A DNA stretch of 64,000 nt, from assembly GCF_900087015.1 (NCBI RefSeq), contig NZ_FLKP01000002.1, positions 1,922,001 to 1,986,000 of the forward strand, given 5' to 3'. The notes below the pieces were generated by a model. It saw only the letters and a program-made list of their open reading frames with translations, was not told where the DNA came from and ran no database searches. Shown piece after piece: positions 9,157 to 28,802 of this stretch. Both the position numbers and the translations under genes were made by a program. This DNA comes from Christensenella timonensis. GTDB lineage: Bacteria > Bacillota > Clostridia > Christensenellales > Christensenellaceae. The first letter of the stretch is position 1; the number at the start of each line of letters is the position of its first letter.

Positions 9157-10134
9157 TCAGCCGTTCCTTGAAAGGATCCTGTACTCTTCCAAAAGCTGCG
9201 TTTGCGCCCTTGGCTCCGTTGCCAGCGCGGCCTTGATCTCCTCATCGAAAAGATTATTGTTCCTGATCCCGACGGCCCGTCCGCCGTTCCCCCTTGCTAA
9301 AAGCTGCACGGCGTGTATCCCAAACGACGAGGCCCTCATCCTGTCGGCGGCGCTGGGGCTTCCTCCCCTTTGGGTATATCCGAGTACGATGGCCTTTGCC
9401 TCCAGCCCCGTCATATCGTGGATATACTGTGCGGTCTCTATCCCGCTGCCCGCTCCCTCCGCAACCAGCACAAGGCTCGCCGTTTTGCCTTTGATACGCT
9501 CCGAGACCAGCCTGTCACAGATTTCGTCCAGGTCTTTTTCCTTTTCCGGGATCACGATATTTTCGGCCGGGCCGGCGATCCCCGCATACAGCGCGATATC
9601 CCCGCATTGGTTCCCCATCACTTCGATCACGCCGATACGTTCGTGTGAATTCATCGTGTCCCGTATCTTCGCCATTTCGCTGATCACGAGGTTCACGGCC
9701 GCATCGAAGCCGATCGTAAAATCCGTGTAAGGCAAATCGTTGTCGATCGTTGCCGGGACAGCGACCGTCGGTATGCCGTGCCTGTCGAGGACTTCGGCTC
9801 CCGCAAAGCTCCCGTCCCCTCCGATCACGACCATCCCTTCGATATTGTATGCTTTGATGACATTGAGGGCTTTCTGCCGGCCGGCGTCTGTCATGAATTC
9901 CCGGCATCGCGCCGTTTTCAGGATCGTACCGCCCATATTGGCGATATCCCGGACGTCCTCCGGTTTGATACGGGATACGTCGCCGCTGATCAGCCCGGCG
10001 TATCCTTTTTTGATGCCCATGGCCACAAAACCATTGTCATCCGCAGCCAAAACCACGGAACGGATGGCTGCGTTCATGCCCGGCGTGTCTCCGCCGCTTG
10101 TCAGTACACCGAGTTTTTTCCTCATAACCGCCAA
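9157..10134 (-). CDS. pfkA: 6-phosphofructokinase-type kinase, last gene of the long operon
   Basis: A 325-residue phosphofructokinase of group A size. Motifs: the nucleotide loop GVLTSGGDTPGMNAAIR, GGDGSFAGA, the substrate region TIDNDLPYTDFTIGFDAA with its catalytic Asp, and EVMGNQCGDIALYAG. The GGDGS glycine points to ATP rather than pyrophosphate as donor. Just before TIDND the protein has PA where bacterial ATP enzymes usually have PG and pyrophosphate enzymes PK, an oddity close to the active site. It begins 3 bases after etfA, so it belongs to the sugar-import and acyl-CoA operon rather than standing next to pyruvate kinase. It may phosphorylate fructose 6-phosphate or another sugar phosphate such as tagatose or sedoheptulose phosphate. 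The family is certain, the substrate is not. Confidence 0.88.
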   Translation of the reverse strand: MAVMRKKLGVLTSGGDTPGMNAAIRSVVLAADDNGFVAMGIKKGYAGLISGDVSRIKPEDVRDIANMGGTILKTARCREFMTDAGRQKALNVIKAYNIEGMVVIGGDGSFAGAEVLDRHGIPTVAVPATIDNDLPYTDFTIGFDAAVNLVISEMAKIRDTMNSHERIGVIEVMGNQCGDIALYAGIAGPAENIVIPEKEKDLDEICDRLVSERIKGKTASLVLVAEGAGSGIETAQYIHDMTGLEAKAIVLGYTQRGGSPSAADRMRASSFGIHAVQLLARGNGGRAVGIRNNNLFDEEIKAALATEPRAQTQLLEEYRILSRNG

Positions 10135-10137
10135 CCT

Positions 10138-11157
10138 TCAACAAGTCGTTTCCATACTCTTTATTTCTTTTATTTTTGCGATCAGCTCCGGGATCACCTT
10201 ATGCATATCCCCGACGACCGCACTGTTTGCGACCTGCATGATCGGCGCGTCGATCTGCTTGTTGATGGCGATGATATAATCGGATTCCTGCATCCCCGCC
10301 AAATGCTGTATCGCTCCCGAAATCCCGCAGGCGATATATACCTGGGGACGCACTGTTTTGCCCGTCTGCCCTACCTGGTACGCTTTATCGATCCAGCCCG
10401 CGTCCACTGCCGCACGCGATCCGGACACGACCCCGTTAAGCTCATCCGCCAAGTCGTACAACAGCGAAAAATTTTCTTTGCAGCCGACGCCCCTGCCGCC
10501 GGATACCAAAATTTTGGCCTCACCAATATCTACGACCTGCTTTGCCGCTTTGGCGATTTCCACGATATCCGTACGGATATCCTCCGGCATTAAGTCCGGT
10601 ATGATTTCTTCCAGAATTCCTTTTCCCGTCCTGCAACCCTGCGGGATCTCAAACACGCCCGGCCGCACCGTAGACATCTGCGGGCGGTGCTCCTGGCAGA
10701 TGATCGTCGCCATCAGGTTGCCGCCGAAAGCGGGCCGTGTCATCAGGAGGTTGGCGGTGTCCGGGCAAAGCGCGAGCCCCGTACAGTCCGCCGTGAGCCC
10801 TGTTTCAAGGCGCGCGGCGACGCGCGGCCCCAGGTCCCTGCCGATATTCGTTGCCCCAATGATAAATATTTCCGGCTTCCTTTCGTTCACAAGCTCGCAG
10901 ACGACCTTTGTATAAGCGTCCGTCGTATAGTTTTTCAGGAAGGCATGCTCCACTGCCAGTACGCGGTCTGCGCCGTGGGCAAACAGCTCGCCTGCCAGCC
11001 CTTTGATCCCTTCGCCCGGCAATACGGCGGTCAGCTCCACGCCCAGTTCGTCCGCCAGTTCACGCCCTTTGCCCAATATCTGCAAGGACACCTTTTGCAG
11101 CGCTCCTTCACGCTGCTCCGCAAAAATCCACACACCCTTATATTCTTCCTTCTCCAT
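10138..11157 (-). CDS. etfA: Electron transfer flavoprotein alpha subunit
   Basis: A 339-residue ETF alpha subunit. The N-terminal domain (to about 190) carries GATNIGRDLGPRVAARL; the C-terminal FAD domain carries SGGRGVGCKENF, SRAAVDAGW, QVGQTGKTVRPQVYIACGIS and the AINKQIDAPI stretch that cradles the flavin. It pairs with EtfB to pass electrons from the acyl-CoA dehydrogenase. The start is the second ATG after EtfB, with GGAGGG 4 bases ahead; the much longer frame runs back into etfB. In clostridia such pairs with butyryl-CoA dehydrogenase can bifurcate electrons to ferredoxin, which is possible here but not shown by sequence alone. Confidence 0.93.
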   Translation of the reverse strand: MEKEEYKGVWIFAEQREGALQKVSLQILGKGRELADELGVELTAVLPGEGIKGLAGELFAHGADRVLAVEHAFLKNYTTDAYTKVVCELVNERKPEIFIIGATNIGRDLGPRVAARLETGLTADCTGLALCPDTANLLMTRPAFGGNLMATIICQEHRPQMSTVRPGVFEIPQGCRTGKGILEEIIPDLMPEDIRTDIVEIAKAAKQVVDIGEAKILVSGGRGVGCKENFSLLYDLADELNGVVSGSRAAVDAGWIDKAYQVGQTGKTVRPQVYIACGISGAIQHLAGMQESDYIIAINKQIDAPIMQVANSAVVGDMHKVIPELIAKIKEIKSMETTC

Positions 11158-11180
11158 AAGTCCCTCCATCCTCACTATGC

Positions 11181-11966
11181 CTACAAGATGTGCAGCTCTT
11201 TTAGCACGCCCGCAACATATCCCGCGGCTTCCTTTGCCGGCGCCTCGTACGGCTGCCCGACCTGCCGAAGCTCTTTCGTCATAGATTTCTTTACCCGCGT
11301 AGGCGAACCGCTGAGCCCCAAAAGCGCCGGGTCTAGACCGATATCCCCTGCGCCCCATTGCCTGATCTCTTTACCGAACGCGCCGGATATCCCTTTGATA
11401 CCCATATACCGCGGCTCGTTTAATTCTTTGATCGTAGTCAGCACCACGGGCATTTTCACCGATATACATTCATATCCGTCCTCCAGCGACCGCTTGACAA
11501 CGAGCCTGCCGCCTTGAACCTTCATGCCTTCCACATACGTTACCTGCGGCAGTCCAAGGTGCTCCGCCATCTCCGGCCCCACCTGTGCGGTATCCCCGTC
11601 GATCGCTTGCCTGCCCGCAAAGATGATGTCCACAGCATATCCCAGCTTCCTGACGGCAGCCGCCAATACCCTGGAGGTAGCGAGCGTATCCGCCCCGGAA
11701 AACTGCCTGTCCGTGAGCAGCACGGCTTCGTCGGCCCCCATCGCCAGCGCTTCCCTGAGCGCGTATTCCGCCTGCGGCGGCCCCATTGTCATGACAAGGA
11801 CATGCGCGCCCAGCTCTTCTTTGGTCTTTAATGCCTCCTCCAGCGCGCTCAGATCGTCGGGGTTTATGATAGTGGGGATCCCGTCCCTGACCAGCGTCCC
11901 CGTCACGGGATCGATCCGCACTTCATTGGTATCCGGCACTTGCTTGATACAAACAACGATATTCAT
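11181..11966 (-). CDS. etfB: Electron transfer flavoprotein beta subunit
   Basis: A 261-residue ETF beta subunit, beginning MNIVVCIKQVPDT as in the family. The AMP/FAD-binding region includes AGRQAIDGDTAQVGP, and the mid-section ALAMGADEAVLLTD is conserved. It is followed 23 bases later by etfA and preceded 13 bases earlier by the acyl-CoA dehydrogenase, the order seen in many clostridial butyrate clusters. It should form a heterodimer with EtfA and accept electrons from the dehydrogenase. Its length is normal and there are no defects. Confidence 0.94.
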   Translation of the reverse strand: MNIVVCIKQVPDTNEVRIDPVTGTLVRDGIPTIINPDDLSALEEALKTKEELGAHVLVMTMGPPQAEYALREALAMGADEAVLLTDRQFSGADTLATSRVLAAAVRKLGYAVDIIFAGRQAIDGDTAQVGPEMAEHLGLPQVTYVEGMKVQGGRLVVKRSLEDGYECISVKMPVVLTTIKELNEPRYMGIKGISGAFGKEIRQWGAGDIGLDPALLGLSGSPTRVKKSMTKELRQVGQPYEAPAKEAAGYVAGVLKELHIL

Positions 11967-11979
11967 CTGCTTTTGCTCC

Positions 11980-13119
11980 TCATTTCAATATATTGGCGGC
12001 GATCACCATTTTCTGCACTTCGGAAGTCCCCTCGTATATCTCTGTGATCTTCGCGTCGCGCATGATCCGTTCCACCGGATAATCCATCGTATATCCATAG
12101 CCGCCGAGTACCTGTATCGCTTTTGTCGCCACCGCATTGGCAGTCTGGGCCGCAAACAATTTGGCCTGCGCCGCATCCAGCGATATGGGCAGCCCCTGCT
12201 GCTTCTTGAACGCCGCTTTATAGACCAGCAGCTTTGCCGCTTCTACCTGTACGTTCATATCCGCCAAATACCATTGCAGCCCCTGGAATTTTGACAGCGG
12301 TTTGCCAAATTGCCGGCGCTGTTTTACATGTTCCAGGCACTGTGCGTATGCCGCTTCCGCAAACCCCAGCGCCTGCGCCGCGATCCCGATCCTCCCGCTG
12401 TCCAGCGTAGCCATCGCCACGCCAAAGCCCTTGTTCTCTTTACCCAGCAGGTTTTCCTTCGGCACTTTGCAGTCGGCCATAACCAGCTCCCCCGTCGACG
12501 ATGCGCGTATGCCCAATTTTTCCTCGATCTTCCCGATTGAAAAGCCCGGAAAGTTTTTTTCTACGATAAAGGCCGATATCCCACGCGTTCCCTTGGCCTT
12601 GTCCGTCATCGCAAAAATGATGTAAACGTCCGCAAAGCCCGCGTTTGTGATGAATACCTTAGAGCCGTTCAGGATATAATGATCTCCTTCCAATACCGCC
12701 ATCGTCTGCTGGCTTCCCGCATCCGAACCCGCATTTGGTTCGGTCAGGCCAAACGCGCCCAGCTTTTCCCCTGAAAGCAGGCCGGGAAGGTATTTTCTCT
12801 TTTGCTCCTCTGTACCGAAATTGAAAATCGGGGATGCACACAGCGAAGTATGCGCAGCCACGATGACAGAGGTCGTGCCGCAGGCCTTCGCCAGTTCCTC
12901 CATGACGATGATATAGCTCACAAAGTCCGAGTCATTCCCACCGTATTCGCTTGGGAACGACATCCCCATCAGGCCGTATTTGGCCATTTTTTTCACCGTA
13001 TCAAGCGGGAATTGCTCCGTTTTATCGATCTCGGCAGCGACCGTCGCCACCTCGTTTTCGGCGAATTTCCTGACCATCTGCCGTACTAAGTCATTTTCTT
13101 TTGTAAATTCCATCTCCAT
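11980..13119 (-). CDS. Acyl-CoA dehydrogenase, butyryl-CoA dehydrogenase type
   Basis: A 379-residue flavoenzyme of the short-chain acyl-CoA dehydrogenase type. Conserved blocks: FGLTEPNAGSDAG (FAD and substrate binding), GSKVFITNAG, MATLDSGRIGIAAQ, the QVLGGYGYTMDYPVERIMRD signature (partial quote: QVLGGYGY then RIMRDAKI), and the catalytic glutamate in YEGTSEVQ. It interconverts crotonyl-CoA and butyryl-CoA or a close analogue, with EtfAB encoded directly after it. The start was placed at MEMEFTKEND because GAGGT lies 5 bases upstream; the longer frame would overlap the CoA-transferase gene. Whether it runs in the reducing (butyrate-forming) direction depends on the substrate of the operon. 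Confidence 0.93.
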   Translation of the reverse strand: MEMEFTKENDLVRQMVRKFAENEVATVAAEIDKTEQFPLDTVKKMAKYGLMGMSFPSEYGGNDSDFVSYIIVMEELAKACGTTSVIVAAHTSLCASPIFNFGTEEQKRKYLPGLLSGEKLGAFGLTEPNAGSDAGSQQTMAVLEGDHYILNGSKVFITNAGFADVYIIFAMTDKAKGTRGISAFIVEKNFPGFSIGKIEEKLGIRASSTGELVMADCKVPKENLLGKENKGFGVAMATLDSGRIGIAAQALGFAEAAYAQCLEHVKQRRQFGKPLSKFQGLQWYLADMNVQVEAAKLLVYKAAFKKQQGLPISLDAAQAKLFAAQTANAVATKAIQVLGGYGYTMDYPVERIMRDAKITEIYEGTSEVQKMVIAANILK

Positions 13120-13126
13120 CACTACC

Positions 13127-13972
13127 TCAAAAGTTTTCCAAAGAATTTTCCAGCATCCTAATATAGCTTTCAAACGTGATCTCTTTTAACCCGTTCCCGA
13201 TATAGATGCCCTGCGGATCCAAACTGCGTATGATTTTAATCTGCTCTACCGTGGGCAGCTCCGTTTCCCGTACGTCGTCCGCCACTTTCAGATCCCACGA
13301 TACTTCGTTTTTCACGTCCTCTACGCTCACGCCGGGATGGACGCTCGCCAAATAGGCTTCCTTCGTCACTTCGTCGAACCTGAAAATACATTTGTTGGTA
13401 ATGATGGCGGACGGCCCGCCCTGCTTGAGCCCCGCCTTCTCGCGCGAATCGTATCCATCCAGGTATCCGGGAGAGCTGATATAGTCTACGCGTTCCAAAA
13501 ACCTGCGTTTTTGCAGCGGCAGCGTGATGATGGTGCGCAGCGCACAAGAGGCGATATCGTTGGCCCCGCCGCTCCCCGGCAGCCGCGCCGCCGGATGGAA
13601 ATAGTCTCCCCCGCCGAAAATCGCGGTGCTGTTTAAGTTTCCGTACCTGTCGACCTGTGCGCCGCCCAGCATACCGATATCAAAAAAGCCCCGCTGCTGG
13701 TCGCTGAAAAGGCGCCACAGCGACGTATCCACCAATGCGTCCTCCACCCCTGCGTTGTCCCCGATGCCCAATATGATCCGCTTGGGCGCCGGCCCGATGC
13801 TGCCTGATTCCGTCGCGATGACTGCGCTTGGCGCATGCGTCATTTTTGCCAGCAAAGCCCCCAGCGTAGGGATCCCGACTCCCGCAAAAACGGTATCATT
13901 TTCTTTGATCTCCCTTGCCGACGAAACCACAAGGAATTCGGACATGCTGTATTCTTTTGCATATTCTGCCAT
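13127..13972 (-). CDS. CoA-transferase subunit B, glutaconate CoA-transferase-like
   Basis: A 281-residue beta subunit of a family I CoA-transferase. The catalytic glutamate lies in IATESGSIGPAP, and FDIGMLGGAQVDRYGNLN is a typical subunit-B segment. The start is ATG at MAEYAKEYS, with AGGAAAGGA upstream. Its partner, subunit A, is encoded 16 bases before it. Such heteromeric enzymes move CoA from acetyl-CoA or another thioester to a carboxylic acid. In this operon it could activate a hydroxy acid such as 4-hydroxybutyrate, or release an acid as end product. The similarity is closer to GctB than to the AtoA/AtoD acetoacetate enzymes, judging by length and the ESG motif. Confidence 0.88.
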   Translation of the reverse strand: MAEYAKEYSMSEFLVVSSAREIKENDTVFAGVGIPTLGALLAKMTHAPSAVIATESGSIGPAPKRIILGIGDNAGVEDALVDTSLWRLFSDQQRGFFDIGMLGGAQVDRYGNLNSTAIFGGGDYFHPAARLPGSGGANDIASCALRTIITLPLQKRRFLERVDYISSPGYLDGYDSREKAGLKQGGPSAIITNKCIFRFDEVTKEAYLASVHPGVSVEDVKNEVSWDLKVADDVRETELPTVEQIKIIRSLDPQGIYIGNGLKEITFESYIRMLENSLENF

Positions 13973-13988: not shown

Positions 13989-14912
13989 TCAATATCTAAG
14001 CTTGCTGAACCTGCGCTCGACACGCGCCAGTTCGGAAAGCCGTCCATATCCTACCTTTTCCAGGTATCCTTCATGGCTGCCTGTTTTGTAGCACCATTCG
14101 TCCAGCCACTTCAAAAAATCCTCCCGCTGGGCAAACTGTTCCAGCTGCCGGGCATGGAAAGGAATATCGTACGCGTAAGCAAAAGGCATGTTCCATGGGT
14201 GGCAGGCATAGGGAAGCTCCACGACCGCGTCGACACAATACTCCGGTATGATCGTCAAATTCCCGTTTTTCCTGATCTCATCCGTCAAGACCAGCTCTTC
14301 GCAGGTCAGGATCGTATGCTTTGCCGCCCTGGCCATGTTTTCCGCGTTTGATGAGAAGCCGAACATCTGTCCGTTCCCCCGCTTGTCGGCCCTCGATACG
14401 TGTATGATGGCCGTATCCGGCGCAACTGCCGGAACGAGCGAGACCAGCTCCCCCGTATATGGATCCTTTTCTATTTTGATATCCTTGTTGTACGTCGGCA
14501 GGTCGGAACCCATCAGCGAACGGGAGGGCATGTAGGGAATGTTCAGCGCCCCCGCGAGGAAACGCAGCCCGATGGTATAGTTTGAATAATCCACGACCTC
14601 TACCTTATGCGGGATCCCGCTCTCCACGGCACGGCGGAAATTGTATCCCAGCCCCGCTACGGCGTAAGAGCAAAACGCGATCTCCATTCTTTTGACGCAG
14701 CCCGCCCCGGCCAGCAGATCCCCCGCTTCACACGGGCTGTCGCCGATCAGCGTCAGGTCTTTTTTTCCCTGCCGTATCACTTCATAGGTCTGCGCCACGC
14801 ATTGCGCCCCGCCCATACCGCTGAAGCAAATGCTCGACCCGTCCGCGACAAACCGCGACACCGCTTCTTTGAGCGTTGTCCTTTTATCATGTTGTTTCTT
14901 CCAATTCGTCAT
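13989..14912 (-). CDS. CoA-transferase subunit A, glutaconate CoA-transferase-like
   Basis: A 307-residue alpha subunit that completes the CoA-transferase with subunit B. Visible features are the early SICFSGMGGAQCVA loop, LTLIGDSPCEAGDLL, and the internal AIIHVSRADKRGNGQMFG stretch, equivalent to the HVQRADKYGN region of GctA-like proteins. The acid substrate is not predictable from sequence. It follows the SDR gene by 18 bases. Subunits of this size, about 300 residues each, match GctAB rather than the shorter AtoDA (about 220 each). Confidence 0.87.
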   Translation of the reverse strand: MTNWKKQHDKRTTLKEAVSRFVADGSSICFSGMGGAQCVAQTYEVIRQGKKDLTLIGDSPCEAGDLLAGAGCVKRMEIAFCSYAVAGLGYNFRRAVESGIPHKVEVVDYSNYTIGLRFLAGALNIPYMPSRSLMGSDLPTYNKDIKIEKDPYTGELVSLVPAVAPDTAIIHVSRADKRGNGQMFGFSSNAENMARAAKHTILTCEELVLTDEIRKNGNLTIIPEYCVDAVVELPYACHPWNMPFAYAYDIPFHARQLEQFAQREDFLKWLDEWCYKTGSHEGYLEKVGYGRLSELARVERRFSKLRY

Positions 14913-14930: not shown

Positions 14931-15698
14931 TTACTGCGCCAGCCATCCGCCGTCTACGGCGATCGTCGAACCCGTCACATAATTTGCCGCTTCAGAGGCC
15001 AAATAAACGACCGCCCCCGCAATTTCTTCGGCTTTCCCCAAACGCCGCATGGGGATCTTTCCGGTGATATATTGGTAGACCTTCTCCTCGCCCAGTTCTT
15101 TTTCGTTCATGGGCGTCATCACATAACCCGGCGCAACGGCATTGACCTGGATATTGTACTTTGTCCATTCCAACGCCAGCCCCCGCGTCATCTGCAGCAC
15201 CGCTCCCTTGCTTGCGAGGTAAGGCAATACCGCTTTATCCCCCACGATCCCGAAGATGGAAGCGATGTTGATGATTTTCCCCGCCTTTTGCGCGATCATT
15301 TTTTTGCCGACGGCCTGCGTCAGCATAAATACGCCCCGGAGGTTTACGTTCATCACGCGATCCCATTCGTCTATCGTGAGCTCCTCCGCCCGCTTGGTGA
15401 CGGCCGTACCCGCGTTGTTCACCAGGATGTCGATCTTCCCAAATTTATCGAGAGTTGCCTGCAGAAGCGCTTCGACTGATTCCGGCCTCGAAACGTCCGT
15501 CGCTTTTGACAGCGTTTCTACCCCATATGTCTCCTTGATTTCCCGTGCCACCGCGTCACATTCACCGGCTGTCCTGCTGCAAACGACAATATTTGCGCCC
15601 GCCTGCGCAAGCCCGTTGGCTATACCGCGTCCCAGCCCCTTGGTACTCCCCGTAACGATCGCCACCTTTGACGTCAAATCAAACATCGGCAAATTCAT
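14931..15698 (-). CDS. Short-chain dehydrogenase/reductase
   Basis: A 255-residue classical SDR. The Rossmann loop TGSTKGLG is near the N-terminus, NNAGT follows, and the catalytic Ser (IASIFG) and YLASKG pair supply the Ser-Tyr-Lys triad. The end AVDGGWLAQ is typical of FabG-like and sugar or polyol dehydrogenases. The start at MNLPMFDLTS was chosen because GGAGG stands 8 bases upstream. Placed between crotonase and the CoA-transferase, it may oxidise or reduce a hydroxy or keto intermediate. It is a candidate for the missing hydroxyacid dehydrogenase of the pathway, but substrate assignment within SDRs by sequence is unreliable. Confidence 0.88.
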   Translation of the reverse strand: MNLPMFDLTSKVAIVTGSTKGLGRGIANGLAQAGANIVVCSRTAGECDAVAREIKETYGVETLSKATDVSRPESVEALLQATLDKFGKIDILVNNAGTAVTKRAEELTIDEWDRVMNVNLRGVFMLTQAVGKKMIAQKAGKIINIASIFGIVGDKAVLPYLASKGAVLQMTRGLALEWTKYNIQVNAVAPGYVMTPMNEKELGEEKVYQYITGKIPMRRLGKAEEIAGAVVYLASEAANYVTGSTIAVDGGWLAQ

Positions 15699-15727: not shown

Positions 15728-16501
15728 CTATTTTCCCTGAAAACAGGGCCTGCGCTTTTCCAAAAAGGCGCTCATTCCTTCCTCCTTATCGCCGGTCGCA
15801 AAGCATTCGCAGAAAAGGCGCATTTCATAGCCGTATCCCTCCCGGCTGCTTACCGCGCCGTAATTGACCGCTTTTTTCGCATATTCTACTGCAAGCGGCG
15901 CATTGGCGCGTATCCGCTTCGCAAGCTTTTCCGCCTCGGGCATCAGCCCTTCCCTGGTCGTCACAAGGTCTGTCAGGCCGATCTTTTCCGCCGTTTGCGC
16001 ATCGACCGTGTCCCCGGTCAATATCATCCGCATGGCGTGCGATTTGCCAACGATCCCCGGCAGCCTCTGCGTACCGCCAAAACCCGGGAATATCCCCAGC
16101 GTTACCTCGGGTAGGCCGAAGCGGGCATTTTCCGAACAAATACGGATGTCGCACGCCATGGCCAGCTCGCAGCCGCCGCCCAGCGCAAATCCATTGATGG
16201 CGGCGATTACCGGCTTTTTCATCTGCTCCAGCTTGAAAAGCAGGGATTGTCCGCTGCCGATATAATTTGCTACGTCATGGATGTACATGCTTTCCAGTTC
16301 GGCGATGTCCGCTCCCGCAACAAAGGCCTTTTCCCCAGCCCCGGTAAGGATGACCGCATGCACATACGCGTCGGCGTCCAATTCCTGCAGCGCAGCATGC
16401 ATTTGCGCGATCACCTGGCTGCTTAACGCATTCATACTTTCCGCCCGGTCGACCGTCAGAATCGCGATCCCCTCTTTTTTTTCCACCTTAATCGATTTCA
16501 T
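15728..16501 (-). CDS. crt: Enoyl-CoA hydratase/crotonase
   Basis: A 257-residue crotonase. The oxyanion-hole region AFVAGADIAELE, the NGFALGGGCELAMACD block with the first catalytic Glu, and GLPEVTLGIFPGFGGTQ with the second Glu are all intact, so hydratase action is expected (crotonyl-CoA to 3-hydroxybutyryl-CoA). The start is ATG at MKSIKVEKK; an in-frame TTG further upstream has no ribosome site. It lies 14 bases after hbd, the usual partner. Together with thiolase, Hbd and the acyl-CoA dehydrogenase it gives the whole C4 interconversion route between acetyl-CoA and butyryl-CoA. Confidence 0.92.
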   Translation of the reverse strand: MKSIKVEKKEGIAILTVDRAESMNALSSQVIAQMHAALQELDADAYVHAVILTGAGEKAFVAGADIAELESMYIHDVANYIGSGQSLLFKLEQMKKPVIAAINGFALGGGCELAMACDIRICSENARFGLPEVTLGIFPGFGGTQRLPGIVGKSHAMRMILTGDTVDAQTAEKIGLTDLVTTREGLMPEAEKLAKRIRANAPLAVEYAKKAVNYGAVSSREGYGYEMRLFCECFATGDKEEGMSAFLEKRRPCFQGK

Positions 16502-21037: not shown

Positions 21038-21880
21038 CTATCGGATCGACTCCAAGACACTCTGCAATTCTGCGATTGTCTCTTCCATCAATTCGCGTGA
21101 AACAGGCATATTATGATTGCCGGGCTTTAATTCCGCCCAGCTGATCCCTTTTCCCTTGGCTGTGTTAAGTACGATCATGGAAGGCGCCTTGCCCTGTGCT
21201 TTGGCGTTCTGGATCGCTTTGTAGATCGCTTCCACGTTATGCCCGTCGATGCTTTGTGCATACCAGCCAAAATCCGCAAACTTCTGCGCCACATCCCCGA
21301 TGTCGTTCTGCTCTTTGGTAAATCCATCCAGCATCTGCTGGTTGTAATCGATAAACGCGATCAGGTTGGTCAGCTTGAATTGGTTGGCGAACATGGCCAT
21401 TTCCCATACCTGTCCTTCGTTGCATTCCCCGTCGCCGAACAAGGTGTAGACGTAATTGGGCTTGTTGTCCTTTTTCAGGGCCAGCGCGATTCCCGCCGCC
21501 TGCGACCCGCCTTGGCCCAGCGATCCGGTCGTCATGTCAACACCGGGCGTTTTCAGCCTGTCGGTATGGCTGGGAAGGTTCGTGCCGTCCTTATTCAGCG
21601 TTTCCAGCCATTCCATCGGGAAATACCCTTTCATCGCCAACGCCGCATACACAGCGGGCCCGCAATGGCCTTTTGACACTACAAAATAATCGCGCTCTTC
21701 CCATTCAGGGTTTTTGGGATCGATCTTCAGCACCTTCCCGTACAGGACTGCGATCAATTCGGCCACAGACATGGTGCCGCCGATGTGCCCGACCCCCAGC
21801 AAACCGATCTCACGTACCGTCTCGATCCTGATCTTTGCCGCAAAACGCTTCAGTTCCAGAATTTCTTTTTGACTCAACAT
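21038..21880 (-). CDS. Transketolase, N-terminal subunit
   Basis: A 280-residue protein equal to the diphosphate-binding domain of transketolase. Evidence: GHIGGTMSVAELIAVLYG near the start with a conserved His; SKGHCGPAVYAALA; GSLGQGGSQAAGIALA; and the thiamine diphosphate/Mg motif GDGECNEGQVWEMAMFANQF ending in the Asn-containing segment FIDYNQQ. The start is ATG at MLSQKE with GAGGGG 8 bases upstream. It needs the C-terminal subunit encoded next. It should transfer a two-carbon ketol unit between sugars; the acceptor and donor in this operon are unknown. Confidence 0.92.
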   Translation of the reverse strand: MLSQKEILELKRFAAKIRIETVREIGLLGVGHIGGTMSVAELIAVLYGKVLKIDPKNPEWEERDYFVVSKGHCGPAVYAALAMKGYFPMEWLETLNKDGTNLPSHTDRLKTPGVDMTTGSLGQGGSQAAGIALALKKDNKPNYVYTLFGDGECNEGQVWEMAMFANQFKLTNLIAFIDYNQQMLDGFTKEQNDIGDVAQKFADFGWYAQSIDGHNVEAIYKAIQNAKAQGKAPSMIVLNTAKGKGISWAELKPGNHNMPVSRELMEETIAELQSVLESIR

Positions 21881-21894: not shown

Positions 21895-22863
21895 TCAATT
21901 TCCTTGTTCAAATACCCTTCTCGGGTTATCTTCCAGCACCTTGTTTATCTGTGCTTCCGTCACGTCGCTTTTCCGCAGCTCCGGTAATACCAGCCTGTCG
22001 ATATACCTTAGGTCGCGTTCCTCGGGCGTACGGTTTTCAGGCGTTTTCTTCCGCTTGATCTCCCACGTGTTGGCTCCAAAATCAATAAACACGTCGCTGT
22101 CCTGCGACAAAATGATATGGCTTTCATGGCCTCTTTTAATCATTTTGACGAGCGTATCGATCCGCTTCCTGAGCGGGTTGAAATTATTGTCGCCGAAGCG
22201 ATCCATACCGATAAAGCTCCCGCGCCCCAGCACCTCTTCCAAAAAGCCGATATCATTGCTGTCGCCCACATGCCCAATCACGACGTTTTTCAGGTTCACG
22301 CCCGCTTCTTCAAAGATATCCTGCTGCAAAAGCCCGGTCTTTTGCTTTGCGTTGGAATGTGTCGTTATGGGTACGCCTGTCTCCAAATGCGCTTTTGCCG
22401 CAGCTTTTAATACCCTGATGTTGTTTTCGGTAAGGCCCAGCGTATCGTCTGTCGCCACCTTGATGATACCTGCTTTAACCGCTTTTCCCTGCATCCCCTT
22501 TTCAATGTCGTCCACCATCACGCGCACCAGCTCGGATTCCGGCTTCCCAATCATCCACGGTTCCTCCTGGCAGTAAAAGCCCGTCGACGCTATGATCTGC
22601 ATCCCCGACTTGTCGGCTACTTCTGTTAAGATATCGACATCCCGTCCGAGGTTGATCGGCGTACAATCCACAATGGTCTTGACGCCCGTCTCTTTCGTCA
22701 ATTGCAGTTCGCGTACCGCCATACGCACCAGCTCATCCCTGTCAAACCAGTTTTTGTTCGCTATCCGCACCGACCAGTCGCATATCAGGATGTGCTCGTG
22801 CATCAGCGTCCTCCCCAGGTCCCGGGTATCCAGAGGCCCTGTCACACTATTTATTTTTGCCAT
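21895..22863 (-). CDS. Phosphotriesterase-family metal hydrolase, probable lactonase
   Basis: A 322-residue amidohydrolase-fold enzyme of the phosphotriesterase/Php family. All metal ligands seem present: HxH in LMHEHILI, the bridging lysine in GIIKVATD, His in PITTHSN, His in VIGHVGD and Asp in LSQDSDVF. True phosphotriesterases are rare; most family members in sugar clusters hydrolyse lactones, including sugar-acid and lactone phosphates. It stands between the zinc dehydrogenase and the split transketolase, so a dehydrogenase-then-lactonase sequence is a sensible reading. Of two adjacent ATGs I prefer the second because it sits 6 bases after AAGGAG. Confidence 0.85.
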   Translation of the reverse strand: MAKINSVTGPLDTRDLGRTLMHEHILICDWSVRIANKNWFDRDELVRMAVRELQLTKETGVKTIVDCTPINLGRDVDILTEVADKSGMQIIASTGFYCQEEPWMIGKPESELVRVMVDDIEKGMQGKAVKAGIIKVATDDTLGLTENNIRVLKAAAKAHLETGVPITTHSNAKQKTGLLQQDIFEEAGVNLKNVVIGHVGDSNDIGFLEEVLGRGSFIGMDRFGDNNFNPLRKRIDTLVKMIKRGHESHIILSQDSDVFIDFGANTWEIKRKKTPENRTPEERDLRYIDRLVLPELRKSDVTEAQINKVLEDNPRRVFEQGN

Positions 22864-22888
22864 CATAAGCTCCTTTCAGGCTAACTGC

Positions 22889-23914
22889 TCAATACACCTG
22901 CAGCAGTACCTTGAAGTGTTCCTTATCATTGTAGGAATAATCCATCGCTTCCTTCACATCGTCCAGCTTGTAGACCTTTGTGATGAATTTTTCCAGGGCT
23001 TCGTCGATCACACCCGATTCAATGATGCCGATCGCGGCGCCAAAATTGAGCTGGCTGTGTATCCGTACGCCAATGATGTTCAGCTGGCGGGAAAATACGT
23101 CTATCGTATCCACAAGCACAGGCTGGGTCGGTACGCCTACGATCACGACCTTGCCACCCGTTTTGCATACCTTCGTCATCAACGCGGCGCCGGGCGCAGT
23201 CCCTGAAACTTCGTATACCGCGTCAAAGCCCTTGCCCTGCGTCATCAAAAGCGCAGCGGCGGCAGCATCCTCTTCCGCCGGATTGATCACTTGAAAACCA
23301 AGCTCCCGTGCGAAATTGCTGCGGTATTCGTTGATCTCGCTGATCACTACTTTGGAGGCGCCGCTTAAGCGTGCGACCAGGGCAATCAATATCCCGATCG
23401 GGCCGCCGCCGATCACAAACGCGCTTTGCCCCACCAGGAAATTGCTTTGCCGCACATCATGGACAGCAACCGCCAACGGCTCTATCAGCGCCGCCAGTTT
23501 CAAATCCATTTCTTCCGGCAGCTTGAATACTTTGCGCAGCGGTACTTTCACATATTCCGCAAACCCGCCGTTCTCATGCACGCCGATGATGCTTAGTTTG
23601 GAGCACACATTTTCCAGCCCTGTGATGCATGCTTCGCAGGTACGGCAGGAATTATACGGCTGTGCCGCCACATGGTCGCCGACCTTCAGGTCGACCGCTT
23701 CTTTCGATTTAAAATCCGCCAGCTCGCCGACAAATTCATGCCCCATGATAACGGGCAGCGCGGCCGTTTTGTGCTCCCCTGCCATCACGTGCAGGTCGGA
23801 GCCGCAAATTCCATTGTACTTAACCTTGATCAATGCTTCGCCTTCCTGTATCTCCGGTACGGGTGCTTCCTCAACGTTGATCTCACCGTGCTTTCTTACG
23901 ATTGCTGCTTTCAT
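22889..23914 (-). CDS. Zinc-dependent medium-chain alcohol/polyol dehydrogenase
   Basis: A 341-residue MDR enzyme resembling sorbitol, threonine or butanediol dehydrogenases. Catalytic zinc residues are present in YNGICGSDLH (Cys) and PVIMGHEFVG (His, Glu). Four structural zinc cysteines lie in SCRTCEACITGLENVC. The NAD loop FVIGGGPIGILIA is at about residue 165-180. It likely oxidises an alcohol group of the imported compound. It follows the second permease gene by 38 bases and precedes the lactonase-like gene by 25. A second, zinc-less MDR protein is encoded at 30368-31387. Confidence 0.9.
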   Translation of the reverse strand: MKAAIVRKHGEINVEEAPVPEIQEGEALIKVKYNGICGSDLHVMAGEHKTAALPVIMGHEFVGELADFKSKEAVDLKVGDHVAAQPYNSCRTCEACITGLENVCSKLSIIGVHENGGFAEYVKVPLRKVFKLPEEMDLKLAALIEPLAVAVHDVRQSNFLVGQSAFVIGGGPIGILIALVARLSGASKVVISEINEYRSNFARELGFQVINPAEEDAAAAALLMTQGKGFDAVYEVSGTAPGAALMTKVCKTGGKVVIVGVPTQPVLVDTIDVFSRQLNIIGVRIHSQLNFGAAIGIIESGVIDEALEKFITKVYKLDDVKEAMDYSYNDKEHFKVLLQVY

Positions 23915-23952: not shown

Positions 23953-24963
23953 TTATTCCGCGCAGTTCACTGCCGCTTTTACCTTTTTGCGCCTCCGGCC
24001 GCGCTGTCCCTGCAAATTGTTCAGCAGGAAACCAAACACCAGTATGATCCCCTTGATCATCGTCCTGATCGCGATATCCAGGTTCAGCACCGCAATGAGG
24101 CTGAACAGCACCATCAGGAACAGCGAAGCCAGTATCGTCCCCACAATGGAGCCCTTGCCTCCGTCAAAGGCGGCCCCGCCCAGTATAGCCACGGTCAGGG
24201 AATCCATTTGGTAGTCGTCCCCGACCGTAAGGCTGCCCGTGCCGATATAGGCTGCCAAAACCAGTCCTGCCAATGCCGCCAGCAGGCCGCACAGTCCATA
24301 GGCGATCAGCTTTATTTTCACGACGTTCAGCCCGGCTAGGTTTACCGCGCGTTCATTGGCGCCTGTGCAGAAAATATAACGTCCCAGCGGCGTGAGTTTG
24401 ATCAATATCATCACGACCACGGCGATCAGGATCCATACATAAAACGCGCTCGGGATGCCTGCGATAAACCCTGTCGCCCAAAACCGCAGGTTCTCCGGGA
24501 TCTTCCCGCTCGGCGCGCCGTTGCACATGATCATCATCACGCCAAACAAAAGCATGCTCATGCCGAGCGTCGTCACAAACGGCGGCATCCGCAGCTTTGC
24601 GCAGAACAGCCCGTTTGCCAGTCCCACGCCGATGCCGATCAAGATGCATAAGAGCACGCCAAAGCCTGCATTTTCCGGATGCCCCATCATCAAGCCCGAC
24701 GCCATGACCGTTGTAAACGACATCATCGCGCCTACAGAAAGGTCGATACCGCCGATCAGCATCACCAGCGTCTGGCCTATGCCCACGATGATCAGGGGGG
24801 CTGCCTGCCGCGTAAAGTCGAGTAAATGCGCGCCTTCGATCGATGATGGCGAAACGATCCCCAATACCACGACCGCAATGACCAGCGCCCATAAAACAGG
24901 CGGTATCTTATGCAATACTTTCCCCAAACTGTTTTTTTCTTTTTCAAGAGAATGTTCATTCAT
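23953..24963 (-). CDS. ABC transporter permease, RbsC type (second)
   Basis: A 336-residue inner-membrane subunit of a carbohydrate-type ABC importer, with 8-10 hydrophobic segments. The conserved GIGQTLVMLIGGIDLSVGAM block and a late LGGAAFDGGKGSIVGT block are hallmarks of the ribose/galactose permease family. The start was placed at MNEHSLEKEKN, where AAGGAGA lies 8 bases ahead. It is encoded with a second, related permease and a two-domain ATPase, so the channel is probably a heterodimer. The C-terminus is basic (GRRRKKVK). Confidence 0.9.
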   Translation of the reverse strand: MNEHSLEKEKNSLGKVLHKIPPVLWALVIAVVVLGIVSPSSIEGAHLLDFTRQAAPLIIVGIGQTLVMLIGGIDLSVGAMMSFTTVMASGLMMGHPENAGFGVLLCILIGIGVGLANGLFCAKLRMPPFVTTLGMSMLLFGVMMIMCNGAPSGKIPENLRFWATGFIAGIPSAFYVWILIAVVVMILIKLTPLGRYIFCTGANERAVNLAGLNVVKIKLIAYGLCGLLAALAGLVLAAYIGTGSLTVGDDYQMDSLTVAILGGAAFDGGKGSIVGTILASLFLMVLFSLIAVLNLDIAIRTMIKGIILVFGFLLNNLQGQRGRRRKKVKAAVNCAE

Positions 24964-24988: not shown

Positions 24989-25945
24989 CTAGTTCTCCTT
25001 ACGATCCTTGACCGCATATATCAGCACAATGAGGATCAGTATCGCTCCTTTTAGCGCGTATTGCCAATACGAATCGACCCCAACGAGGTTCAATATGTTG
25101 TTCAAAATAGTCATAACGAACGTGGACGCTATGATTCCCGAAAGCCTGCCTACGCCACCCGCAAGACTCAGCCCGCCCAGTACGCAGACGGTGACGGAAT
25201 CGAGCGAGAAATTTTTTCCAAGCGACGCGTCGCCCGTACCCATCCTTGCGGTCAGGTAGATGCCTGCGATCGCCGCCAGCATACCGCCTAGCGCATATAC
25301 CGCAATTTTTACTTTTTTGGTGTTGATGCCCGATAGCTGCGAAGTGCGTTCACTGCCGCCCACCGCATAGATGTTACGTCCAAAACGCGTTTTTCCCAGG
25401 ACGGTGATCATGATGGCAAAAAACGCAACCATGATCAGGATCCCTACCGGTATCACCCCCAGCCGGTAGGTCAGGAACTCCGTCAAGGCGTAGGGTACGG
25501 AGCCGCCCGGCGTAGGCCGGAATACCAGGGCGATCCCCGTCAGCACCGACATCGTTGCCAGCGTCATCGCGAACGGCGGTACCTTGAGCGTGGTGATGCC
25601 CCAGCCGTTCAAGGCGCCAAAGCCGATGCCGAAAGCCAGTGCCACCACGATCCCGATCAGTATTCCCACCGGGCTGTCGGCCGTGATCACCGACAGCATC
25701 GCGCACGTCGCGCTGATCATCGCGCCCAGCGAGAGGTCGATTCCCCCGGTGAGGATGATCAATGCCTGTGCAATCGATACGATGCCCAGTCCTACCGCCT
25801 GCTCAAAGATATTGCCTAAATTGACGGCGCTGATAAAACGGTTACTTACCAAAAGCCCAATGATGATTTCAATAATGAGCACAATGTAAACGGTCACAAT
25901 GGCGTCATTCTTTTTTACAAATTGCTTTAAAGCCATACTGTTCAT
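24989..25945 (-). CDS. ABC transporter permease, RbsC type (first)
   Basis: A 318-residue membrane subunit paralogous to the next gene. It shares the signature SIAQALIILTGGIDLSLGAM and the late VCVLGGLSLAGGVGRLSG motif of RbsC/BPD_transp_2 permeases, and spans the membrane many times. The ribosome site before the ATG is weak (AAGGG), and translation may be coupled to the ATPase gene 24 bases upstream. Having two different permeases suits sugar importers of the ribose or xylose type, but does not fix the substrate. Confidence 0.9.
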   Translation of the reverse strand: MNSMALKQFVKKNDAIVTVYIVLIIEIIIGLLVSNRFISAVNLGNIFEQAVGLGIVSIAQALIILTGGIDLSLGAMISATCAMLSVITADSPVGILIGIVVALAFGIGFGALNGWGITTLKVPPFAMTLATMSVLTGIALVFRPTPGGSVPYALTEFLTYRLGVIPVGILIMVAFFAIMITVLGKTRFGRNIYAVGGSERTSQLSGINTKKVKIAVYALGGMLAAIAGIYLTARMGTGDASLGKNFSLDSVTVCVLGGLSLAGGVGRLSGIIASTFVMTILNNILNLVGVDSYWQYALKGAILILIVLIYAVKDRKEN

Positions 25946-25969
25946 CTCTGCTACCCTTTCGTCTGCATG

Positions 25970-27484
25970 TTATCCGGCTGTTTTCGTTTGCGCCTTGTTG
26001 CCCACTGCCAGGTTGATGATCCCTTCTTCCGTTGCGCTTTCAGGATCGACTTCCCCGATGATATGGTGGTCGTAGCATACCAGTATCCTGTTGCTGGTAT
26101 GGATCGTCTCCAGCAGGTCGCTGGAAACCATCAGTATCGCTACGCCGCTGTCCGCAAGCTCACGCAACAACCGGTAAATTTCCATTTTTGCGTTGACATC
26201 GATCCCCCTTGTAGGTTCATGGATGATCAGAAGTCCCGGCTTCGCCACTAGGCAGCGGGCCAAAGCGACTTTTTGCTGGTTCCCACCGGAAAGCGACTGT
26301 ACCTCCAAGTCCAGAGATGTCGTTTTGATGCGCAATTGCTTTACCATCTCTTTTGAAAGCTTTCTTTCCTCGTTGGCCGTTACGAACAGGCCCTTTTTGG
26401 ATATTTTTTTTAAAATGGGTAAACAGATATTGTTATAAATGGGTAGGCCCAGGCACAGGCATTCCTGCTTCCTGTCGTCACTTAGGAAGGCAATCTTATT
26501 TTGCACCGCATCCTTTGTCGACCGGATCCGCAGTTCCTTCCCGTGCAGCTTCACCGTTCCCGAAAGTATGGTTTCCAGCCCAAAGATTGCCCTGATGACC
26601 TCTCGTTGGCCCTGGCCTTCCAGCCCGGCAATCGAAACGATTTCCCCTTTCCTTACGGCAAAGCTCGCGCCCTGCTTCCCCTTTTTGACGACAAGGCCGT
26701 CCACTTCCAGTACGGTCTCGCCGCATTTATCCTTTTCAAACGCAGGGAAGATACTGTCCACCTTGCGCCCAACCATCATGTTTACGATGTCGTCCCTGCT
26801 GATTTCCCCCGTATTCACGGTGCTGACCATATGACCGTCCTTGAGCACCGTGATCCTGTCGGATATTTCCATGATTTCATTGATCCTGTGCGTAATAAAA
26901 ATAATGGATTTGTTCTGTGCTTTTAGCGACTGCACGATGTCAAAGAGGAATTTCACCTCCTGCGGCGTAAGGGCCGCGGTCGGTTCATCCATAATGATCA
27001 GCTTCGCATCCACGCTGAGCGCCTTCATGATCTCCACCATCTGCTGCTGCGCGACGCTCAATTCTTTTACCAAGGTATCCGGCCGGATATCTACCTCCAG
27101 GCGCTTGCTTAGTTCCCGCACACTCTGGTGTATCTTCTTGGAATCGATGAAATGCTTGGTGCGTAAAGGCTGTTTTCCCAAATAAATATTTTCCGCAACC
27201 GACAAATGCGGGATCAAGTTGAATTCCTGGTGGATGATGCTGATGCCATAATCGCTCGCCTGTAGCGGGTTTTGTACATCTACCGCTTTTCCCTCCAGGC
27301 AGATCGTCCCTTCATCTTTGGAGAGCACCCCGCAAATGATGTTCATCAGGGTCGATTTTCCCGCGCCGTTTTCCCCGACCAGCGCGTGGATCTCACCCTT
27401 CAGGATACTCATATCGATATTTTCCAGCACAACGTTATCGCCAAATGATTTTTTGATATTTTTTACTTCCAATAATGTTTCCAC
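25970..27484 (-). CDS. Sugar-type ABC transporter ATPase with two nucleotide-binding domains
   Basis: A 504-residue RbsA/XylG-like ATPase with two cassettes. The first has Walker A GENGAGKSTLMN, signature LSVAQQQMVEI and Walker B LIIMDEPTAAL; the second has a degenerate loop GLEGQGQREVIRAIFG, then SLSGGNQQKVALARCL and LLIIHEPTRGID, in which the usual Asp-Glu is His-Glu. The asymmetry is normal for this class. The start is GTG at 27484, favoured because GAGGAG stands 7 bases upstream; an earlier GTG overlaps that site. It energises import of the ligand bound by the lipoprotein encoded first in the operon. Confidence 0.92.
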   Translation of the reverse strand: METLLEVKNIKKSFGDNVVLENIDMSILKGEIHALVGENGAGKSTLMNIICGVLSKDEGTICLEGKAVDVQNPLQASDYGISIIHQEFNLIPHLSVAENIYLGKQPLRTKHFIDSKKIHQSVRELSKRLEVDIRPDTLVKELSVAQQQMVEIMKALSVDAKLIIMDEPTAALTPQEVKFLFDIVQSLKAQNKSIIFITHRINEIMEISDRITVLKDGHMVSTVNTGEISRDDIVNMMVGRKVDSIFPAFEKDKCGETVLEVDGLVVKKGKQGASFAVRKGEIVSIAGLEGQGQREVIRAIFGLETILSGTVKLHGKELRIRSTKDAVQNKIAFLSDDRKQECLCLGLPIYNNICLPILKKISKKGLFVTANEERKLSKEMVKQLRIKTTSLDLEVQSLSGGNQQKVALARCLVAKPGLLIIHEPTRGIDVNAKMEIYRLLRELADSGVAILMVSSDLLETIHTSNRILVCYDHHIIGEVDPESATEEGIINLAVGNKAQTKTAG

Positions 27485-27522
27485 AAGACTTCTCCTCACA
27501 TCCGCCTCTTAGCGTTGGTGCT

Positions 27523-27553
27523 GCCGGACGGCGTTTTTCCGGCGCCGCCCGGC
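27523..27553 (-). promoter_or_regulatory. Stable hairpin between binding-protein and ATPase genes
   Basis: Arms of 11 bases (GCCGGGCGGCG with CGCCGTCCGGC, one G-U pair) around a 9-base loop, with no T run after it. This placement after the binding-protein gene is typical of mRNA 3'-end stabilisers that raise binding protein over membrane subunits. It is the largest gap (91 bases) in the 19-gene operon. Confidence 0.6.
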
Positions 27554-27575
27554 CTCCAACTTACCTTAGGTCATA

Positions 27576-28802
27576 TCATTCTCCATACAGCTCTTGTAGC
27601 AGGCTTTCCGGAAGAGCGCTCATGCCCCAGTAAGAATCCGAGAGATCCGGCCGTGCATATTCCTCCACCGTATCCTGTGTCACCACGGAATTTTCAAAGA
27701 TAAGGCTTTTGTCGACTTCCTCGCCCTGCAAACACTTGAGCGCGATGCGCAGCGCTTCGCCGCCGATCCATGAGGGATAGCCGGGGCCTACGCTCTCAAA
27801 GCCTTCCGGTTTGAGGTTCAGCCACATCTTCAGGAAGCCGTTGTTCGTTTCCCCTGTAATTGGCACCAGGTCTCGTCCTGCCGCCTGCATCGCTTCGATC
27901 GCCCCCTGCGCTACCGCGCCGCCGTGCGAAAACACCGCGTCGATCTCCGGATATGCAGCCAGTGCGGTTTCCATCGCCTGTTTCCCTTTGGCATAATCCC
28001 AGTCCGTGAAATATTCCGCCAGAACTTCGATCCCCGCGCCGCCGTCCGGCAATGCCGCGAGGGCGTCTTCCCAGGCCTGTGTCCTTTGCGCGGTGATATC
28101 GTTCCCTGCCATGCCGCTCAATACGACGACTTTGCCTTTGCCGCCGATTTTATCCAGCAGGAACTCCGCGCTTACTTTACCAAAATCATAATCGTCGCAG
28201 CCGATATACGCCGTATAGGCCGTTTCATCCTCGATTTGCGAGCTGAACGTAATAACCGGAATCCCCTGCGCGATCGCCTGTTTTGTCACGACATTGGTCG
28301 CGGTCGGCGAATTCGGCGCCAATAACAGGGCATCAATACCTTTGGCCAGCAAATCCTGTATGTCGGATATCTGCTTGGAGATATCTCCGCCTGCATCCGC
28401 TTCATATAATTCAATGCCCTGTCTCTTTGCTTCTTCTTCCAATTCCGTTACCATCTGCACGCGCCACGTATTGTCTACAGAGAAGTTTGAAAAACCGATC
28501 TTATACGGGCCATCCTTTTTAAATTCGGTCGTATCCACTTTCTCGCCGCTGGCTGTCCCTACGACTTCCCAGTCCACAAACCCGTCCGCCGCGGCTGCGC
28601 TCCCGTCGCCCGCAGCGCCGTCCGTTGCTTTTTGCGTACTGCCGGCCCCTGATGATTCCTGTGCGCTTTCCTCCGCCACAGGAGCGCTTGTTTCAGCGCT
28701 GCCCGAACCTTCTGCAGCCTGTTCAGCCGTCGTGCAGCCCGTCGCGAATACCGCAAGCACCATCATTACAACAACGGCAAGTACAATAACTCTTTTCTTC
28801 AT
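27576..28802 (-). CDS. Sugar-type ABC substrate-binding lipoprotein, first gene of the long operon
   Basis: A 408-residue periplasmic-binding-protein type 1 receptor. It has a lipoprotein signal with lipobox ATGC, a linker rich in Ser/Ala/Glu to about residue 75, then the binding domain (GPYKIGFSNFSVDNTWRVQM onward). Likely ligand-facing residues are in SNFSVDNTW, HGGAVAQG and TGETNNGFLKMW. The strong ribosome site AGGAGG precedes the ATG. Ligand class: sugar-like by family, not identified further. A close, membrane-anchored paralogue is encoded divergently at 29182-30321 and shares these same residues. Confidence 0.93.
   Translation of the reverse strand: MKKRVIVLAVVVMMVLAVFATGCTTAEQAAEGSGSAETSAPVAEESAQESSGAGSTQKATDGAAGDGSAAAADGFVDWEVVGTASGEKVDTTEFKKDGPYKIGFSNFSVDNTWRVQMVTELEEEAKRQGIELYEADAGGDISKQISDIQDLLAKGIDALLLAPNSPTATNVVTKQAIAQGIPVITFSSQIEDETAYTAYIGCDDYDFGKVSAEFLLDKIGGKGKVVVLSGMAGNDITAQRTQAWEDALAALPDGGAGIEVLAEYFTDWDYAKGKQAMETALAAYPEIDAVFSHGGAVAQGAIEAMQAAGRDLVPITGETNNGFLKMWLNLKPEGFESVGPGYPSWIGGEALRIALKCLQGEEVDKSLIFENSVVTQDTVEEYARPDLSDSYWGMSALPESLLQELYGE

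Follow-up and report, generated by a model that had tools for sequence, protein, structure and literature searches.

Why should genes for sugar import, a split transketolase, a 4-hydroxybutyryl-CoA dehydratase-like protein and butyrate-type enzymes stand in one operon? The question is raised by a run of 19 open reading frames (ORFs) on the minus strand of Christensenella timonensis DNA, at 9157-28802 of the window, our term for the whole stretch of 64,000 nucleotides analyzed here. The answer we put forward, with a confidence that approaches but does not reach even, is a regulated operon for breakdown of an unphosphorylated sugar, sugar acid or cyclitol, in which the transketolase leftover would itself enter the route of the dehydratase (AbfD). 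An earlier note on this DNA had described a single operon whose gaps are at most 38 bases except one of 91, with a non-terminator hairpin in that gap and a strong terminator only at the end of the run; our analysis agrees on gaps, hairpin and terminator. All 19 ORFs were found; with start codons chosen by Shine-Dalgarno-like support (those of Hbd, Crt, CtfB and PfkA were read by hand), intergenic gaps are -1 to 38 bases, apart from the 91 bases (27485..27575) between the binding protein and ATPase genes, which fold into a stable hairpin (-33.8 kcal/mol, z -2.84) with no U tract and no T5 run. Following PfkA, a hairpin with a U tail at 9090-9119 of the minus strand (-20.2 kcal/mol, z -4.73) forms an intrinsic terminator, and a promoter-like site, TTGACA-17-TAAAAT, lies past it at 9047, before the next gene. 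Internal terminators or promoters, which the note had said would split the transcript, were looked for in a 20-kb scan of 8500-28499 whose listing lacks the PfkA terminator; matches were at chance level for both (20 terminator-like found versus 19.5 expected, 17 promoter-like versus 14.9). No T5 run occurs in the 15 listed gaps longer than 10 bases, the CtfA-CtfB gap being read by eye only. GC content of the operon (0.507-0.565 in 4-kb steps) lies inside the range of the whole window (0.472-0.571). Collectively, the layout points to a single transcript across the 19 genes.

Most NCBIfam matches of the encoded proteins fall under curated cutoffs, and the assignments given here in order of transcription, all on the minus strand, are certain at the family level only. 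The first four genes encode an RbsB-like sugar-binding lipoprotein-like protein (27576..28802; 111.9 bits on the NCBIfam RbsB model, below cutoff; 50% identical to its counterpart in G005, the genome of a second species of the genus), an RbsA-like ABC ATPase (25970..27484, refined start; 493 bits, below cutoff) and two RbsC-like permeases (24989..25945 and 23953..24963), assigned by NCBIfam profile and comparison with G005. A Tdh/IolM-like, Zn-dependent medium-chain dehydrogenase (22889..23914), 48% identical to the G005 product of 9022-10044, scores 238 bits as threonine 3-dehydrogenase and 218 bits as IolM, both under cutoff. There follow a phosphotriesterase (PTE)-family hydrolase, a probable lactonase (21895..22866; PF02126, E 4.7e-70), and the N (21038..21880) and C (20050..21021) halves of a split transketolase, with best PDB matches 6yak and 6yaj, respectively. 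Acyl-CoA genes begin with a thiolase (Thl, 18854..20050), which as an acetyl-CoA C-acyltransferase reaches 397.5 bits on TIGR01930 (cutoff 240.55) and is nearest to BktB, scoring 404.6 bits on that subfamily model, below the cutoff of 565. Next come AbfD (17390..18832; 1U8V, E 2.6e-169), 3-hydroxybutyryl-CoA dehydrogenase (Hbd, 16516..17358; 405 bits, cutoff 408), a crotonase-type enoyl-CoA hydratase (Crt, 15728..16501; 308.6 bits as short-chain-enoyl-CoA hydratase, cutoff 394) and a gluconate 5-dehydrogenase-like short-chain dehydrogenase (SDR, 14931..15698; 276.5 bits, cutoff 279). The run closes with subunits A (13989..14912; 1poi, E 1.6e-38) and B (13127..13972) of a glutaconate CoA-transferase-like enzyme, a short-chain acyl-CoA dehydrogenase or acryloyl-CoA reductase-like protein (ACD, 11980..13119; 536.6 bits, cutoff 640), ETF beta (11181..11966; 356 bits, cutoff 445), ETF alpha (10138..11157, refined start; 413.9 bits, cutoff 600) and 6-phosphofructokinase (PfkA, 9157..10125; 374 bits on the subfamily model, cutoff 253; 60% identical to PfkA of G005). 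The butyrate set thl, hbd, crt, acyl-CoA dehydrogenase, etfB and etfA is thus complete at the family level, mostly below equivalog cutoffs. Neither a glycosidase nor a sugar isomerase family is among those matched by the 19 proteins.

The transketolase bears on the type of substrate. In an alignment with the solved Carboxydothermus split enzyme, the five sugar-head-group positions of the C half read RAFDR, and D469 (E. coli numbering) is replaced by N, whereas ordinary split transketolases in the same alignment have RSFHR and D469. Across 59 aligned rows, counting the solved enzyme and a few genes represented more than once, positions 461/469/473 read D/N/H in 43 and H/D/H in 11. RAFDR is the motif reported, in the available part of PMC11659671, for sulfofructose transketolase, as opposed to RSFHR in phosphate-sugar enzymes. 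The same text has the sulfo-transketolase SqwGH transferring two carbons from a ketose without phosphate to glyceraldehyde 3-phosphate. Moreover, the accessible portion of PMC12016104 describes a TktA triple mutant (R358I/H461S/R520Q) with raised activity on 5-keto-gluconate and tartaric semialdehyde as product; loss of H461 is all that the window enzyme shares with it. These features suggest that the donor is probably non-phosphorylated and most likely a keto-sugar acid, which the enzyme would cut. The sulfoquinovose pathway of Clostridium sp. MSTE9 and Faecalicatena (PMC11659671, as far as available) resembles the window operon in its split transketolase with RAFDR motif; unlike that cluster, the window has no sulfoquinovose or sulfoerythrulose isomerase among the families of its 19 proteins, and butyrate-type enzymes follow. 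Sulfoquinovose was rejected as substrate for want of these isomerases.

The earlier note allowed that comparative genomes might reveal the parts of the operon as neighbors merely by chance. G005 carries a related operon (L249) at C1:1484935-1501494, a closely spaced minus-strand run with the same flanks as in the window: rhodanese (66% identity), redoxin (72%), ORF 7362 (80%), FolC (75%) and ValS (89%). Its genes are, in order, those for the binding protein, RbsA, RbsC, RbsC, a medium-chain dehydrogenase (MDR), the N and C transketolase halves, a metallo-beta-lactamase-fold protein, another MDR and PfkA, and then an OYE-type flavoenzyme, Thl, Crt, Hbd, a second metallo-beta-lactamase-fold protein and Fe-ADH. 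Gaps are at most 31 bases except for 102 after the binding protein gene and 138 before that of Fe-ADH. Transporter, dehydrogenase, both transketolase halves, Thl, Hbd, Crt and PfkA form a core common to both species (36-60% identity), with PfkA at the end of the run in the window and in mid-run in G005. AbfD, SDR, CoA-transferase, ACD and EtfBA are all missing from the G005 operon. The two genomes thus appear to hold, at one genomic site, diverged or exchanged operons of the same plan, with a conserved core and a modular back end. Because G005 holds the same core in one run between the same flanks, a chance neighborhood is unlikely, and the proposal that the parts belong together stands for the core; it finds no backing there for AbfD, SDR, CoA-transferase or ACD/EtfBA. 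Within the genus, the gene-order search that the note had called for thus returned the core run of G005, not the full 19-gene set.

AbfD of the window differs from the solved enzyme 1U8V in its loops. Aligned to 1U8V, it keeps the cluster ligands and catalytic residues, which we take to be C99, C103, H292, Y296, C299, K300, E257 and E455 of 4-hydroxybutyryl-CoA dehydratase. The loops by E257 and E455 are 15 and 20 residues long, versus 13 and 24 in 1U8V, and 109 aligned AbfD rows split without overlap into 56 of class I and 53 of class II. Class I includes 1U8V, a second copy of the host itself and the proteins of inositol clusters; class II includes the window protein (twice in the set), a second G004 copy, and proteins of Desulfosporosinus, Eubacterium callanderi and others. 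Gene neighbors divide the same way. Within 6 kb of AbfD, the 49 class II loci examined have Hbd (23), Thl (23), SDR (18), Crt (16) and a CaiB-like protein (12), with Fe-ADH, Cat2 and SSADH in none, whereas the 34 class I loci examined have Fe-ADH (23), Cat2 (19) and SSADH (13), with no SDR. Over whole fetched loci, some of them short, Fe-ADH, Cat2 and SSADH occur in 0 of 49 class II loci versus 26, 25 and 13 of the 34 class I loci, respectively. Profile searches identified the neighbors, except that CaiB, 2-oxoacid oxidoreductase and sigma-54 regulator genes were named by eye. Class II is a distinct subfamily of AbfD-like proteins, with altered loops by both catalytic glutamates and different gene neighbors. 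Three Desulfosporosinus loci (L109, L111, L112) hold a CoA-transferase 69-72% identical to that of the window (69-70% for subunit A, 71-72% for subunit B), class II AbfD, then SDR, Thl, Hbd and Crt, with no sugar genes, so the back end of this operon seems to be a module that can stand by itself elsewhere. With the 4-hydroxybutyrate branch of butyrate formation (SSADH, 4HbD, Cat2, AbfD) the window shares an AbfD homologue with catalytic residues, a CoA-transferase, Crt, Hbd, Thl and ACD-ETF; unlike that branch, it has class II AbfD and neither SSADH nor Fe-ADH, and the class I copy of the host is a separate gene. That copy lies left of the window (L003, 17349-18797), some 9 kb downstream of where the operon ends; in G005 the distance from the operon end to the class I AbfD gene is about 6 kb.

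The note had also proposed lactone opening. Aligned to 4if2, the hydrolase keeps the positions of the binuclear metal ligands (read by eye), presumably the HxH, Lys, His, His and Asp of phosphotriesterase-like lactonases. No match to this protein was found at E<=1e-80 in 390 other genomes or, in a separate survey, at E<=1e-50 in 381 others, and a scan of genome contigs with it, which possibly excluded its own or very near genomes, gave none either. The sole other relative seen in the genus, in G002 (42% identity), is encoded divergently from a LacI-like gene (named by eye) and from a run of binding protein, RbsC, RbsA, RbsC, MDR and transketolase genes, about 11 kb from the transketolase; the stretch examined around it has no Thl, Crt or Hbd. 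The PTE-like hydrolase is missing from the G005 operon, and metallo-beta-lactamase-fold proteins are present instead, both with 4-pyridoxolactonase, AhlS and AiiA as best models, all far below cutoff. Since a protein of lactonase-type fold in G005 stands where the window has the PTE-type hydrolase, a lactone-opening role is favored, and the proposal gains support from this apparent replacement by another fold; the hydrolase is a probable lactone-opening enzyme. Its possible service as a stand-in for the ring-opening IolN was not leaned on, as IolN and transketolase are paired only in L026 of the host genome and in L175, a metagenome-assembled genome (MAG). Eight other IolN places, in 7 genomes, show no transketolase in the stretches examined, several of which end with their contigs. 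L026 itself has an IolN-type 3-dehydro-scyllo-inosose hydrolase at 4761-5873 (300 bits, cutoff 245) in the same run as Thl, Crt, Hbd and a split transketolase.

Transketolase and butyrate genes are brought together elsewhere in the host as well. All three of its transketolase C halves found at E<=1e-40 (window, L026, L028) adjoin Thl/Crt/Hbd sets, and three of six crotonase matches of the genome adjoin a transketolase pair of this type (binomial 2e-4, post hoc). A survey of six genomes of the genus located 17 transketolase places in 5 of them, all examined in stretches of about 20 kb. ACD-EtfBA lies beside the transketolase in 2 of these, a set that, like the Thl-Crt-Hbd set considered below, counts the window, and the remaining places have mostly sugar transporters and no butyrate genes. 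The link therefore seems to be a tendency of some operons and not an enzyme-wide rule. All families of the acetyl-CoA butyrate cluster (thl-hbd-crt-bcd-etfBA) have members in the window; unlike that cluster, the set lies within a sugar import operon that also includes transketolase and PfkA.

Relatives of the window transketolase also occur inside catabolic clusters for inositol. Matches at E<=1e-70 were found in 281 of 391 genomes of the class, and 20 stretches were taken near the top of the list. Nine of these (L066-L069, L071, L073-L075, L085) have type II GAPDH and a PGK-like gene beside the transketolase pair; among the nine, seven have a nickel malate racemase-like gene, six iolB and/or iolD, and four malic enzyme. 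The reference cluster L075 has iolD, E and G and a LarAH6 malate racemase over cutoff and iolB below it, and no gene in the 20 stretches was labeled iolC-like. These clusters read as converting inositol to 5-keto-2-deoxygluconate, from which transketolase would give malate semialdehyde and then malate and pyruvate. This malate-semialdehyde branch of inositol use looks undescribed. A second type emerged from the AbfD loci: in 5 of 80 named loci (L175, L178, L180, L181, L182), iolD, Fe-ADH, a Cat2-like CoA-transferase, AbfD and this transketolase occur together, four of them also with iolB. The Fe-ADH is of the 4-hydroxybutyrate-dehydrogenase kind, at 99 and 119 bits in the two tested (cutoff 500). 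Stretches of G351 (L189, L076) hold the same set plus PfkA, and L184 has iolD, Fe-ADH, Cat2 and AbfD with no transketolase on its short contig. L175 recapitulates much of the window layout, with RbsA, RbsC, two MDR, IolN hydrolase, transketolase, AbfD, CoA-transferase, Crt, ACD, EtfB and EtfA. Transketolases near AbfD in L127, L130 and L139 have the RSFHR motif, lie 3.4 to 3.9 kb off and were set aside as housekeeping. Malate-type and AbfD-type neighbors of the transketolase both fit an aldehyde-acid product. By gene content, transketolase appears to replace the usual succinate semialdehyde source in the AbfD-bearing clusters, making an inositol-to-butyrate route possible in Agathobaculum and Lachnospiraceae MAGs, among others. 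The window operon resembles iol catabolism (iolG, E, D, B, C, J) in that relatives of its transketolase sit inside iol clusters; unlike an iol operon, no iolG/E/D/B/C model leads for any of its 19 proteins, and the IolM match of the dehydrogenase is below cutoff. Plain inositol use was rejected, as the operon has no iol genes and IolD over cutoff is found in none of the six genomes of the genus.

Read as one pathway, the operon would begin with import by the ABC system, oxidation of the compound by one or more Zn-dehydrogenases, and opening of a lactone or ring by the PTE-family enzyme to yield a keto-sugar acid that ends in CH2OH-CO-. The split transketolase would transfer the two-carbon ketol end to glyceraldehyde 3-phosphate, and the resulting xylulose 5-phosphate would re-enter metabolism via the pentose phosphate route and PfkA. 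The leftover four-carbon aldehyde acid would pass into the acyl-CoA genes: SDR would reduce and CoA-transferase activate it, class II AbfD, crotonase and ACD-ETF would dehydrate and reduce the activated acid, and Hbd and thiolase would cleave it to acetyl-CoA, unless butyryl-CoA were kept. We infer every one of these reactions, most of all the entry of the transketolase leftover into the acyl-CoA genes; the gene layout, family membership, conserved G005 core and transketolase motif are what the sequence displays. Several observations weigh against this scheme. Three of 49 class II AbfD loci show a transketolase, each time of the ordinary RSFHR type; class II AbfD elsewhere accompanies SDR, Thl, Hbd, Crt and other acyl-CoA genes, and the AbfD of inositol clusters is class I, not the class II of the window. 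The window transketolase keeps both arginines lost in the TktA mutant, differing only at the H461 and S385 positions. Thl-Crt-Hbd lies beside the transketolase in only 4 of the 17 genus places, IolN adjoins a transketolase in 1 of the 9 places of its survey, and L175 additionally encodes an IolC-type kinase that passes its cutoff, so transketolase may not be the sole route there. The G005 operon, L026 and L028 hold Thl/Crt/Hbd but show neither AbfD nor CoA-transferase, which implies that Thl/Crt/Hbd need not be fed by a transketolase product.

That last point, together with the PfkA common to the window and G005, equally suits a scheme that we consider a substantial, if minority, possibility: all of the sugar would reach acetyl-CoA by way of transketolase, pentose phosphate steps, PfkA and glycolysis, Thl-Hbd-Crt-ACD-ETF would make butyrate only as an electron sink for NADH, and AbfD, SDR and CoA-transferase would be an added module for another acid, much as the AbfD-CtfA-CtfB-SDR-Thl-Hbd-Crt block of Desulfosporosinus stands without sugar genes. 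Such a private butyrate set seems redundant, however, in a genome that also holds a thl-crt-hbd set (L030) and an ACD-Etf set (L027), and the presence of AbfD, SDR and CoA-transferase inside the run stays unexplained. It is improbable, in our judgment, that the substrate is a composite of a sugar part, taken by the transketolase, and a 4-hydroxyacid or lactone, from which the PTE-family lactonase would free a 4-hydroxyacid (4-hydroxyvalerate-like, for example) for degradation by class II AbfD, SDR and the BktB-like thiolase. The association of SDR with class II AbfD (18 loci) and not class I, the lack of Fe-ADH, Cat2 or SSADH in all 49 class II loci, the under-cutoff top score of the thiolase on BktB, and the PTE-like and metallo-beta-lactamase lactonase-like proteins all favor it, but the 19 proteins match no glycosidase family and the transporter is of the monosaccharide type. 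The chance joining of two or more adjacent operons with no metabolic link would suit the differing back-end genes of G005, and co-transcription is a reading of layout; yet the listed gaps lack T-runs, the core forms one run in G005, and PfkA is placed differently in the two species, making such an accident very improbable. The reading given in the earlier note is partly supported, in that its parts go together. Against a fixed pathway stand the G005 operon, L026 and L028, which pair transketolase with Thl/Crt/Hbd in the absence of AbfD, SDR, CoA-transferase and ACD/EtfBA.

Should transketolase leftover indeed feed AbfD, the operon would represent a so far undescribed mode of sugar or cyclitol fermentation, in which transketolase cuts keto-sugar acids lacking phosphate and a four-carbon aldehyde acid goes directly to CoA activation and an AbfD-type enzyme; we offer this as a tentative proposal, with the balance of probability against it. 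Part of the carbon would then reach crotonyl-CoA, acetyl-CoA and butyrate bypassing pyruvate, and the same logic would apply to the inositol clusters of Agathobaculum and Lachnospiraceae MAGs and to other Clostridia, where the product would be malate. The usual sources of gut butyrate are pyruvate-derived acetyl-CoA, lysine, glutamate and succinate. Entry from transketolase at the level of 4-hydroxybutyryl-CoA would be a further one, and the genes would predict which anaerobes use it. The comparison also suggests roles for a transketolase subfamily, a second AbfD subfamily and the transketolase-bearing inositol clusters. No description of the gene combination was found in the open-licence PMC literature searched, and transketolase is not mentioned in the available part of PMC8355322.

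Two frames elsewhere in the host genome touch on the ETF genes. The 626 aa frame at 5616-7496 of L027 matches ETF alpha and spans a crotonase match, and may be an ETF alpha-crotonase fusion; a 608 aa open frame at 1210-3036 of L035 also matches ETF alpha. Upstream of the operon, a second sugar-binding protein and possible sensor (29113..30321, plus strand; PF13407, E 1.1e-43) is encoded divergently. Beyond it, on the minus strand, lie a second Zn-dependent dehydrogenase (30368..31387) and three genes for an AraC-type regulator, a response regulator and a sensor kinase (31384..36468). Two 16-base direct repeats with 44-base spacing, a candidate operator, lie between the divergent binding-protein genes (28945..29004). 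The functional locus is probably wider than 19 genes, taking in this upstream binding protein, dehydrogenase and regulators.

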